A stretch of 64,000 nucleotides of DNA, from the NCBI GenBank assembly GCA_002839675.1, contig PGYM01000003.1, forward strand, positions 248,001 through 312,000. Reading direction: 5' to 3'. Below the pieces are notes generated by a model, which worked only from the letters and a program-made list of their open reading frames with translations, was not told where the DNA came from and did not search any database. This document shows positions 36,982-41,337 of this stretch, one piece after another (position 1 is the stretch's first letter; each line of letters opens with the position of its first letter). Made by a program: the position numbers and the translations under genes. The stretch comes from Methanomicrobiales archaeon HGW-Methanomicrobiales-1 (lineage in GTDB: Archaea; Halobacteriota; Methanomicrobia; Methanomicrobiales; Methanospirillaceae).

Positions 36982-39228
36982 ATGAGCGAATACATCAGCC
37001 ACCCCCTGGTCAGGCCGGACAGCATCGAGAAACGGGAGTACCAGCTCTCGATTGCGATGAAGGCACTGGATGCCAATACCATGGTCATCCTGCCCACCGG
37101 CCTTGGCAAGACGGCTGTTGCACTCCTTGTTGCCGCATCCCGGCTCTATAACGAGGGGGGCAGGATCCTGATGCTTGCCCCCACCAAGCCGCTCGTGGAG
37201 CAGCACCTCCGTTATTTTGAAAAATACCTGCTGGCAAAACCGCAGGAAGGCAGTTCCGCATCCCCGTTTGTTATGTTCACCGGGGAAGCCCCCCCATCCG
37301 AGCGCACCGAGGACTGGAACCGGGCCACCGTGATCCTTGCCACCCCGCAGGTGGTGAAAAACGATCTTCTTGCCGGCCGCTACACGCTTGCGGATGTCTC
37401 TTTGCTGATCGTGGACGAATGCCACCGGGCCGTGGGCAATTACGCGTATGTCTTTTTAGCCCAGCGCTACATGGGCACCGCGGACAAACCGCTGCTCCTC
37501 GCGATGACGGCATCGCCCGGCGGCGTGCAGGAGAAGGTGCAGGATGTCTGCTCGAATCTCGGCATTGCCCATATCGAGAACCGGACCGAGACCGACCCGG
37601 ATGTCCGCCCGTACGTGTTCGAGCGCGAGCTGGAGTACGTCTCCGTTGACCTCCCCACCGATCTCAAGGCAGCGATCCACGCCCTCGATGCGCTTATCGG
37701 GGACCGGCTCGCCCTGCTCACCTCGCTGAACTTCACCGTGCCCAAGCGCGACAAGCTCTCGATGAAGGAGCTCAACGGGATCAATGCCCAGATCCAGCAG
37801 CGGATCCAGAACCAGGACCCGGCCGCCTACTCGGGAGCATCGCTCTATGCGGAACTGATGAAACTCCGGCACGCGATCACCCTTGCCGAATCGCAGGGCA
37901 GTGAGGTGCTCAAAGGGTACCTTGCAAAGCTTGTCGCTGAAGGCACCGGGTCCGGGGGAAGCAAGGCGAGCCAGCGCTTAGTAAAAGACCCGATCTTTCA
38001 GGAACTCTTCGAACGCACGCTCGGGTGGACAAGAGAACTGCACCCGAAACCCGATATCGCCCTGAAACTCGTGCAGGACCAGCTGGTCTCCCACCCCGAC
38101 AGCCGGATCATTGTCTTTGCCACGTACCGCGACACCGTGCAACTTCTCGTGGATCACTTCACCAGTCACGGCATCTCCTGCGAACGCTTCGTGGGGCAGG
38201 CAACGAAGGACGCCGAGAAAGGGCTCTCGCAGAAGAAGCAGATCGCGGCCCTGACCCGGTTCCGCGAAGGTGAGTTCAAGGTGCTGATCGCAACATCGGT
38301 TGGCGAGGAAGGCCTAGACGTCCCGGCGACCGACATGGTGATCTTCTACGAGGCGGTTCCCTCCGAGATCCGGTCCATCCAGCGCCGGGGCCGGACGGGA
38401 AGGTCCGGGGCAGGAAAGATCGTGGTCATGGTCACGAAGGGAACCTCGGACGAGGTCTTCCGCCATGTCAGTGCATCGAAAGAGAAACAGATGCACAAGA
38501 GCATGCGGACGATGGGCGGCTATACCTCATCCGCCGCACCGCAGCAGCCCCTCGTTGTCGAACAGGAGACCCTCGATGAATTCACCCCGCAGGGACCCAA
38601 GATCATCATCGATGACCGCGAGACTTCCTCAAAAGTGGTTGAAGTCCTCTCGAACATGGGCGCCGTGATCCGGATCGAGCGCCTCCCCCACGGCGATTAC
38701 GCGATTGGCGACCGCATCCTCGTCGAGCGCAAGACCGCGAGGGACTTCGTCGATACGCTGATCAACCGCGACCTGCTCGGGCAGGTAAAGGCGATGGCGG
38801 AATCGGTGACCCGCCCGGTGATGATCATCGAAGGCGGGGACCTCTATGCCCAGCGGGACATGCACCCGAACGCGATCAAGGGCGTGCTTGCGGCCCTGAC
38901 GGTGGATATGGGTGTCTCAATCCTCTTCACCCGCGACGAGCAGGACACCGCCCAGATGCTCTTTGTGCTCTCGAAGCGCGAGGACGGGGAGCGGGGCGAG
39001 CGCAAGGTGCACCCGCACAAGTCCCATCACTCACAGAAGGAGGAGCAGGAGTATATCATCTCGGCGTTTCCGGAGATTGGTCTCCGGAATTCCCGGTTAT
39101 TGTTAGCTCACTTCGGGTCTATCCAGGGGATTGTGAATGCTTCTGTTGAAGAGCTGGCAGCGGTGAAGGGGATTGGGGAGAAGACGGCTCAGAAGATTTT
39201 TGATTTGTGCCGGAGGGTGTACGGGTAG
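36982..39228 (+). CDS. hef: Hef-type helicase-nuclease (FANCM/XPF-like)
   Basis: A 748-residue protein. The N-terminal SF2 helicase has Walker A PTGLGKT at 38-44 and a DECH box at 145-148. A helical insertion (about 230-300) and the second RecA domain with RRGRTGR follow. From about residue 530 an XPF/ERCC4 nuclease begins (IIIDDRETSSKVVEVL), with the ERKxxxD active site in VERKTARDF near 580. Tandem helix-hairpin-helix motifs (AAVKGIGEKTAQKI) close the protein. Hef processes stalled replication forks and branched DNA. The active sites look intact. It lies between two GC-rich repeats and close to the palindrome array, which may be coincidence. Confidence 0.96.
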   Translation: MSEYISHPLVRPDSIEKREYQLSIAMKALDANTMVILPTGLGKTAVALLVAASRLYNEGGRILMLAPTKPLVEQHLRYFEKYLLAKPQEGSSASPFVMFTGEAPPSERTEDWNRATVILATPQVVKNDLLAGRYTLADVSLLIVDECHRAVGNYAYVFLAQRYMGTADKPLLLAMTASPGGVQEKVQDVCSNLGIAHIENRTETDPDVRPYVFERELEYVSVDLPTDLKAAIHALDALIGDRLALLTSLNFTVPKRDKLSMKELNGINAQIQQRIQNQDPAAYSGASLYAELMKLRHAITLAESQGSEVLKGYLAKLVAEGTGSGGSKASQRLVKDPIFQELFERTLGWTRELHPKPDIALKLVQDQLVSHPDSRIIVFATYRDTVQLLVDHFTSHGISCERFVGQATKDAEKGLSQKKQIAALTRFREGEFKVLIATSVGEEGLDVPATDMVIFYEAVPSEIRSIQRRGRTGRSGAGKIVVMVTKGTSDEVFRHVSASKEKQMHKSMRTMGGYTSSAAPQQPLVVEQETLDEFTPQGPKIIIDDRETSSKVVEVLSNMGAVIRIERLPHGDYAIGDRILVERKTARDFVDTLINRDLLGQVKAMAESVTRPVMIIEGGDLYAQRDMHPNAIKGVLAALTVDMGVSILFTRDEQDTAQMLFVLSKREDGERGERKVHPHKSHHSQKEEQEYIISAFPEIGLRNSRLLLAHFGSIQGIVNASVEELAAVKGIGEKTAQKIFDLCRRVYG

Positions 39229-39537: not shown

Positions 39538-39732
39538 ATGCATCCTTTCATCATCCTCCTGATTATTGCTGATATTTTTATTATTATATCATACTGTATT
39601 TTTGATGGTTATACTCATTCTCATACATGGGGAAAACAATCTATCCTTTTTATGAATGTCATAATGTTTATCATAATGGTTTTGAAATTACTTTCATGCA
39701 AGGAAAAATATTTTTACAAATTTTTTAATTGA
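39538..39732 (+). CDS. Possible small hydrophobic protein in A/T-rich stretch
   Basis: A 64-codon frame, mostly hydrophobic (IILLIIADIFIIISYCIF and ILFMNVIMFIIMVLKLL), with an AAAGGATG site upstream. Base composition is far more A/T-rich than the rest of the window. It could encode a two-helix membrane protein or be chance coding in A/T-rich DNA. It partly overlaps the in-frame extension of the opposite-strand frame, not the 52-residue protein itself. Confidence 0.35.
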   Translation: MHPFIILLIIADIFIIISYCIFDGYTHSHTWGKQSILFMNVIMFIIMVLKLLSCKEKYFYKFFN

Positions 39733-39784
39733 AAATTTTTTATTTGATAATCAAAATTTTCTCTTAATTATGATGAACCCCTCC

Positions 39785-39861
39785 GCCCCCGCGGCGGTTT
39801 CAACGACTAAGAATAAAATCTCCCTGCCCCGCCGTGCCCTGAAGCGGCCCTGAAGCGGGGA
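39785..39861. repeat. GC-rich two-part intergenic repeat, copy 2
   Basis: CCCCGCGGCGG then an A/T-rich spacer and CCCGCCGTGCCCTGAAG...GGCCCTGAAGCGGGG. The order and sequence of the two GC blocks match copy 1 at 36766-36856, in the same orientation, with a spacer of different length. Confidence 0.6.
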
Positions 39862-39933
39862 GCCCTCCTTAGTATTCCACCATTTCAACCATTCTTATGA
39901 TTATATTAGATCATATCCGGTTCACAGCAGGAC

Positions 39934-40533
39934 ACCCCCCCTCCAATCTAAGAGGGGTACCCCCCTCTCAAAAGTACGAGGGGGGGATACCCACCCCCCT
40001 CTCCAAAAACCGGGAGGGGGACCCCCTCCCCCCCTGTCTTGGACAAGAGGGGGTACCCCCCCATTTCCGGCATCCGCATGGCCCCCGCTTCCCGTGGAGT
40101 CCCGTCTGAAAACCCGGTTACCGGTCCGCGCCGGGAAGGGGGGTACCCCCCACTCAAAAGTTCGAGAGGGGGTACCCTACCCCCCTGTCCAAAAAATGAG
40201 GGGGGGTATACCCACCCCCTCTCCAAAAAGCGAGGGGGGGACCCCCTCCCCCCTTGTCTCGCGCAAGACAGGGTACCTCCCCCCCCTCCGGGTGCTTGTA
40301 CCGGGCTATTGCTTCGCGTGGAGTCACGCCGGAGAGAGGTTTTTGTGAGGGGGGGTCATGAGGGTGGGATACCCCCTCTCTTCCGTACGAGTGGGGGGGA
40401 CCCCCTCCCCCTCTCAAAAAATGAGGGGGGGTCCCCTGCCTGCCCTACCCCCCCTCTTGCCCGGGACAGGGTACCACCCCCTCCCCCCCTCTGAAATTTG
40501 AGAGGGGGTACCTATCCCCCCCGCTTTTGGATT
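39934..40533. repeat. Array of tandem G/C-tract palindromes (GGTACC-joined hairpins)
   Basis: About ten imperfect hairpins of roughly 30 bp follow each other. Each has the form of a C-tract, CTCTCAAAAA or CTGTCCAAAAA loop, then GAG and a G-tract, and they are joined by GGTACC, GGTATACC or GGGACCC. A longer period of about 200 bp is visible: ACCCCCTCCCCCC followed by TGTCT occurs at 40021 and 40241, and CGTGGAGTC at 40093 and 40317. Frames are open on both strands only because stop codons are rare in this composition. No protein is called. The array ends about 145 bp before the siroheme reductase-like gene. Confidence 0.85.
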
Positions 40534-40677
40534 GGGTACGCTTTCCGGAAATTTTTGAGCACAGTGATCACAGGAAATTGAATCCTTTGAACTTGCCCGG
40601 GTCGTTACCTATGCAAACCGTTAATGTGTCTGTAGTGAATCATGCATAGAACTTCAATTAAAAACGCGTGTGTTATC

Positions 40678-41337
40678 ATGACAAAGACAAACATCGCTGA
40701 AAAAGGAGCCATCATCCAGAGAGACCTTGAGACATTCTCCATCTCCCCTCACATCCCCGGCGGCTTTGCCGACCCGGCCCAGCTGAGGAAGATCGCGGAC
40801 GTGGCAGAGAAATATAACGCGAAATTCGTCAAGCTCACCGGTTCCCAGCGCATAGCCATCATCGGCATAAAGGAAGATGACCTGGACAAGGCCTGGGCTG
40901 AGTTTACCGATCAGTCAAAGGCCATCGGCCAGACCATACGCAGCATTAAGATCTGCCCCGGCACGCGGGCCTGCAAGAAAGCCCGGCAGGACAGCCCCGC
41001 TCTCGGGTTTGCCCTTGACAAAGAGTTCTATGGCAAGTCCGCGCCGGCCAAGTTCAAGATGGGCGTCTCGGGATGTCCCAACTGCTGCAGCGATTCGTGG
41101 ATGAAAGATATCGGGTTTTTCGGCACCGATACCGGGTATACAGTAATCGCTGGCGGCAAAGGTGGAGGCAAGCCGAAAGTGGGCCGGGTAGTAGCAGAAG
41201 GCCTGACTGAAGACCAGGCATTAATACTGGCAAGGAAGGCGATCGCATTCCACCAGGCGAATGGCAAGTTCCGCGAGCGCCTGGGTGATACGATCGACCG
41301 GGTCGGTTTCGACACGTTTGCAAAAGCCGTGCAGTGA
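40678..41337 (+). CDS. Small siroheme/4Fe-4S reductase-like protein (Dsr-LP type)
   Basis: A 219-residue protein made of one sulfite/nitrite-reductase half. The N-terminal ferredoxin-like part (HIPGGFADPAQLRKIADVAEKYNAKFVKLTGSQRIAIIGI) is followed by the cluster motif CPGTRAC and the second Cys pair in GCPNCC. Together these bind a 4Fe-4S cluster coupled to siroheme. Such short proteins occur in many methanogens as dissimilatory sulfite reductase-like proteins. Their substrate is uncertain (sulfite or another small oxyanion, or an assimilatory role). ATG 40678 is preferred, though ATG 40642 is in frame. There is no obvious reductase partner nearby. A T-run follows at 41370-41378. Confidence 0.88.
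   Translation: MTKTNIAEKGAIIQRDLETFSISPHIPGGFADPAQLRKIADVAEKYNAKFVKLTGSQRIAIIGIKEDDLDKAWAEFTDQSKAIGQTIRSIKICPGTRACKKARQDSPALGFALDKEFYGKSAPAKFKMGVSGCPNCCSDSWMKDIGFFGTDTGYTVIAGGKGGGKPKVGRVVAEGLTEDQALILARKAIAFHQANGKFRERLGDTIDRVGFDTFAKAVQ

Follow-up and report, generated by a model that had tools for sequence, protein, structure and literature searches.

A previously undescribed two-core hairpin repeat dispersed between genes of a Methanoregula-type archaeon

Introduction

The genome of Methanomicrobiales archaeon HGW-Methanomicrobiales-1 carries approximately 600 bp of G/C-tract hairpins, with a Hef-type helicase gene (ERCC4, DEAD; 36982-39228) on one side and a nitrite/sulfite reductase-like gene (40642-41337) on the other. 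The locus raises the question of whether this array is a local curiosity or a member of a family and, if the latter, what the members share and how they came to be where they are. The window, meaning the whole stretch of DNA analysed, comprises 64,000 nucleotides of contig PGYM01000003.1; positions refer to the window unless a contig (C1-C4) is named. Good descriptions of dispersed modular repeats exist for bacteria, but those for methanogenic archaea are poor. The array is one copy of a dispersed intergenic element, and this two-core hairpin repeat is previously undescribed.

Results and Discussion

Architecture of the window copy

A sequence-only reading had reported consecutive units of C-tract, loop and G-tract with the joints GGTACC, GGTATACC or GGGACCC, and such units are present at 39934-40540. 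The landmarks said to recur were likewise located, ACCCCCTCCCCCC..TGTCT at 40021 and 40241 and CGTGGAGTC at 40093 and 40317, at distances of 220-224 bp. The tandem hairpin array is thus real; its count of ten requires revision to approximately 12-13 units, arranged in three blocks around two cores that had earlier been taken merely for landmarks (Table 1). The order of approximately 220 bp in the window copy is the core-to-core distance. Tandem Repeats Finder detected pieces of the hairpin units, with a period of 26-34.

Table 1. Parts of the element copy in the window.
Feature	Position	Strand	Description
Whole element	39934..40540	+	One of 14 copies in its own genome; ragged ends, limits approximate
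Module A	39934..40055	+	G/C-tract hairpin units, approximately four
Core 1	40056..40143	+	Closed by a C-tract (40056-40062) and a G-tract (40138-40143); 40089-40108 is the conserved block TTCCCGTGGAGTCCCGTCTG; profile match C3:288038-288151
Module B	40138..40286	+	Four hairpin units; last unit CCCCCCTTGTC..AAGACAGGGTACC
Module B, first unit	40146-40172	+	CCCCCCACTC..GAGAGGGGG, A.A mismatch
Core 2	40279..40355	+	With a C-tract (40279-40286) and a G-tract (40349-40355); 40313-40334 is the conserved block TTCGCGTGGAGTCACGCCGGAG; profile match C3:288258-288379
Module C	40349..40540	+	Hairpin units, approximately five
Module C, first unit	40372-40399	+	CCCCCTCTC..GAGTGGGG, T.T mismatch; arms are the reverse complement of those of the first unit of module B

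Distribution of the family

A BLAST search of the own genome with this region returned about twelve additional copies, 68-86% identical. A sequence profile built from the conserved core (R1) located 26 cores at 13 loci, exactly two at each, together with one single core (C2:209806-209913); the copy counts for this genome are based on these searches. The copies are scattered over contigs C1-C4. A full copy has the order module A, core 1, module B, core 2, module C and a length of 430-670 bp, and the closest pair of full-length copies is approximately 89% identical, with no young, identical copies.

BLAST matches were obtained in nine of 60 genomes, the own genome included, and R1 matched 19 of the 39 genomes of the genus. 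When the profile search was extended to 232 genomes of the order, 21 matched, all belonging to the genus of the window or to one other genus of its family; no match occurred in any further genus searched. At the sensitivity of one profile, no core is detectable in about half of the genus, and the genomes that lack it include complete or near-complete ones (e.g. G011, G018, G030 and G062). The relatives are mostly draft or metagenome assemblies. Related loci were found by a contig scan in Methanoregula, uncultured Methanomicrobiales and Methanoregulaceae. The sequence GAGGGGGTACCCCCC was discarded as a specific probe, being too short: the contig scan with it gave mainly unrelated G/C-rich genomes in addition to Methanoregula.

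A dispersed, REP-like family in this and related genomes, one of the options raised by the sequence-only reading, is therefore borne out. The refuting condition set for the array, that related genomes would contain nothing similar, did not hold, and an assembly artefact can be discounted since diverged copies of identical layout exist in independent genomes. The statement that no described element has such a layout also stands, as no matching described family was found, nor was a description of the element found in open-licence papers.

Two classes of core

The cores are approximately 75 nt long and are conserved both in sequence (TGCA..TTCnnnTGGA..CGnCGGAG) and in geometry. Each comprises a C-tract, 25-26 nt that include TGCA, the block TTCnnnTGGAnnnn..CGnCGGAG, usually a further 25-30 nt, and a G-tract; of 61 cores, 47 have TTC at a distance of 25-26 nt from the C-tract. 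Cores are spaced 185-192 bp apart in 12 of the 18 copies scored by motif scan, and exactly 189 bp apart in seven copies from five genomes. The remaining spacings in that scan were 156, 179 and 222-224 bp, and copies that it missed gave 233 and 255 bp from landmark anchors. Shifts in spacing occur mainly in steps of approximately 33 bp, the length of one hairpin unit. As in other diverged genomes, the cores and their spacing are kept in G017, where the module sequences differ (e.g. GGTAGTCC/GGACTACC arms); one G017 copy has three cores.

In a tree of the cores, core 1 groups with core 1 of other copies and species, and core 2 with core 2. The nearest neighbour in another copy was of the same class for 31 of 32 cores (maximum of 26 after shuffling of labels), and for 28 of 32 when neighbours were restricted to other genomes (shuffled maximum of 24). 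The two cores within one copy are 52% alike, similar to the 51% for core 1 against core 2 across copies. This separation into classes across species indicates that the two-core unit is what moves or descends, and that the order of approximately 220 bp is inherited architecture. The earlier explanation of this order, that units had been amplified in blocks, is not supported by the same figures.

A shortened second core was observed at L253 (G178) and at L196/L197 (G023, G035), where TGCAC joins CTTCCGACGGAG directly, the TTCnnnTGGA part is deleted, and a matching GTGCAAA stands just before the G-tract. The TTCnnnTGGA motif bears a limited resemblance to archaeal origin recognition boxes, with agreement at seven positions only and a different G-string.

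Genomic sites

The neighbouring genes that were checked are mutually unrelated, the orientation of the element relative to them is mixed, and no protein recurs beside the copies apart from orthologous sites. A common neighbouring gene was rejected on this basis. The element has thus come to occupy many unrelated positions between genes.

Several copies have, in addition, been inherited at the same site through speciation. The site C2:293758 (G000) has counterparts in G022, G008 and G006: G000 and G022 each have two cores there, G008 has one, and G006 has a single short module lacking a core, while G012 and G001 have a short G-tract only. Since core number differs at one orthologous site, gain and loss in place are real, and both hairpin units of approximately 33 bp and whole core-module blocks have been gained or lost in this manner. 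The site C2:548116 in the own genome matches one in G004, and the window copy has a counterpart in G006, where the element lies 1.9 kb downstream of the same helicase gene (0.7 kb in the window). Persistence of several copies at orthologous positions suggests little recent mobility. At G008:C8 (L010) and G006:C22 (L017), the copies in the two species adjoin the same gene yet belong to different subtypes of the element, a pattern suggestive of gene conversion or of independent arrival.

Folding and base pairing

The window copy is predicted to fold far more strongly than its shuffled counterparts, with minimum free energy z-scores of -6.6 for the sense and -7.1 for the antisense strand (25 dinucleotide shuffles); nine other copies gave -3.6 to -10.5 (25 shuffles each). 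The two main types of inner hairpin have mutually reverse complementary arms, so that units occur in both orientations: among 31 comparable units, 13 read CACTC..GAGAG and 13 read CTCTC..GAGTG. An A.A or T.T mismatch is systematic, and a single unit of the 31 is fully matched. Perfect local pairing is not under selection in the inner hairpins. Compensatory changes were not found in inner hairpins or cores, and the core alignment shows conserved sequence with no covarying helix, so inner hairpins and cores gave none of the conserved compensatory changes that had been sought as support for a real element.

These results bear on the strongest rival explanation, a multicopy structured RNA in which a transcript would carry the two cores as domains closed by C/G-tract stems and either serve as a non-coding RNA or affect the processing or stability of adjacent transcripts. 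The strength of predicted folding on both strands is consistent with such an RNA, as is the closure of each core by a C-tract and a G-tract at a nearly constant distance. Some paired changes were seen in outer module arms: in the copy at C1:27296, both arms of module B carry GGGAGC/GCTCCC in place of GGTACC. The arms flanking the core also match their own partners better than shuffled ones, although the effect is modest (permutation z of -3.9) and carries little weight, relatedness not being controlled. However, inverted repeats in DNA would look identical, the mismatch is kept in the inner hairpins, the core has no covarying helix, copies face adjacent genes in either direction and no promoter could be established. 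A known RNA was rejected, Rfam 15 giving no match above gathering score (best E of 0.03, far below gathering). A structured RNA is accordingly regarded as a rather unlikely source of these features, if the most credible of the rivals.

Other classes of array were rejected. Open frames exist, yet hairpin insertions of approximately 33 bp separate the copies, which would mean that a reading frame is not kept, and a protein-coding array was discarded. Identical repeats with unique spacers, as in CRISPR, are lacking on reading of the sequence.

Comparison with known repeats and signs of mobility

In design, the nearest known system is the BOX element of Streptococcus, a modular dispersed intergenic repeat of the form boxA-boxB(n)-boxC (PMC3049150), with the same principle in another layout. 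Shared with BOX are constant parts combined with a variable number of inner parts, strong stem-loops, frames left open by composition and ragged evidence of mobility (PMC3049150). The present element differs in being archaeal and longer, with two paralogous cores at fixed spacing and G/C-tract hairpins of approximately 33 bp, and it has no known sequence relation to boxA, boxB or boxC. The boxA and boxC ends that define BOX are absent; here the termini are ragged, and it is the internal cores that stay constant.

REP/BIME systems similarly consist of short extragenic palindromes that form composite arrays and face both ways (PMC2817692), and alternating orientation is found here too (13 units per orientation class). 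REP systems, however, use REP-associated tyrosine (Y1) transposases (RAYT) and reach hundreds of copies, whereas the two-core element has 14 copies and two long, non-palindromic cores. In a genome-wide search for the Y1 transposase family (PF01797), the gene was absent from the element-rich genomes G000, G006, G008 and G022, and a REP mobilised by such an enzyme was therefore rejected.

MITEs are likewise short, non-coding, dispersed and rich in inverted repeats, and the module arms GGGGGGTGGTACCCTGTC/GACAGGGTACCACCCCCC resemble terminal inverted repeats. Many copies begin with GGGGGGTGGTACCCTGTC or end with GACAGGGTACCACCCCCC, while others do neither; copy ends are ragged and no constant terminal sequence was found. 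Unlike MITEs, the element showed no target-site duplication, either at boundaries read by eye or against near-empty sites at one locus, and no autonomous partner or parent transposon was found among recurrent neighbouring proteins, of which there were none, or in the genome-wide search for the Y1 family. A viral or plasmid origin was rejected: BLAST against phages and plasmids found no carrier, a 23-mer scan of viral contigs found no core, and seven arm matches were coincidences lacking a core.

In fungal mitochondrial DNA, GC clusters and double-hairpin elements are G/C-rich palindromes with restriction-site-like palindromic joints, optional and scattered in the manner of the two-core element. 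They belong to another type of genome and are not known to have conserved paired cores.

Interpretation

The most economical reading, to which we assign about an even chance, is an old non-autonomous modular repeat of BOX/MITE-like kind whose cores serve as protein-recognition sites. Paired cores conserved in sequence at fixed spacing suggest recognition by a protein, and the palindromic modules suggest folding as single strands. The cores would be putative recognition sites for a protein acting on both sites of one element, a candidate mobilising or recombining enzyme supplied in trans. The modules, folding as single strands or cruciforms, might help copying or capture and might also produce the stepwise changes in length. 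Established copies would be mostly passengers between genes. No candidate core-binding protein was found in the analysis. More speculatively, and with a rather low probability, the paired cores may be bound by a nucleoprotein machine dedicated to them in archaea, either a site-specific recombinase or an anchor of chromosome loops. It would engage two sites 189 bp apart, approximately 18 helical turns, which foldable G/C modules separate and flank.

A second rival gives the cores a resident role, as a chromosome-organising or partition-type site at which core pairs would bind a nucleoid protein at fixed spacing and some 14 sites would anchor loops. The paired cores conserved in sequence, the modal spacing of 189 bp retained in diverged genomes, the copies retained at orthologous positions and their spread over contigs C1-C4 all agree with such a role. 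It is nevertheless doubtful, slightly more so than a structured RNA, given that roughly half of the genus, including G011, G018, G030 and G062, has no detectable core, that copy number is variable and core number differs between species at an orthologous site, and that spacings of 156, 222-224, 233 and 255 bp are out of helical phase. Neutral growth of simple sequence, in which G/C palindromes expand by slippage with neither selected function nor mobilising factor, would account for steps of approximately 33 bp in hairpin number and for the short G-tracts at near-empty sites, but it is already disfavoured by the conservation of two distinct cores across species, leaves the constant core geometry and the presence of the two-core unit at 13 unrelated sites unexplained, and is highly improbable.

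With its dozens of copies, its strongly conserved core and the several size states found at orthologous sites, the family may be used to ask how palindromic repeats spread with no obvious transposase and which protein reads the core. Should the core prove to be a chromosome-organising or recombination site, a new archaeal system would be opened.

Neighbouring and other sequences

Just upstream of the window copy, at 39784-39867, lies a REP-like hairpin repeat (AACCCCTCCGCCCCCGCGGCGGTT...) with many copies across the genus; it also occurs upstream of the copies L026a, L026b, L032 and L034. An AT-rich stretch at 39557-39725 has matches of 81-94% in most genomes of the genus.

A second dispersed element was observed in the own genome at C2:518155, C2:574413, C3:32375 and C4:158246 (L246-L249). 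In it, a short block of G/C palindrome precedes a series of palindromes (such as CACATGTACATGTG, GCATGTACATGC or CAATTGTACA-like units), after which comes a gene; it resembles an operator-like array or a different family of repeats. Two further sites, C2:293511-293530 (L036:1312) and C2:505308-505327 (L271), resemble archaeal origin recognition boxes (TTCCACTGGAAATGAAGGGG). The latter is upstream of an Orc1/Cdc6 gene and probably marks the origin; the former adjoins a copy of the two-core element and is retained in four species.
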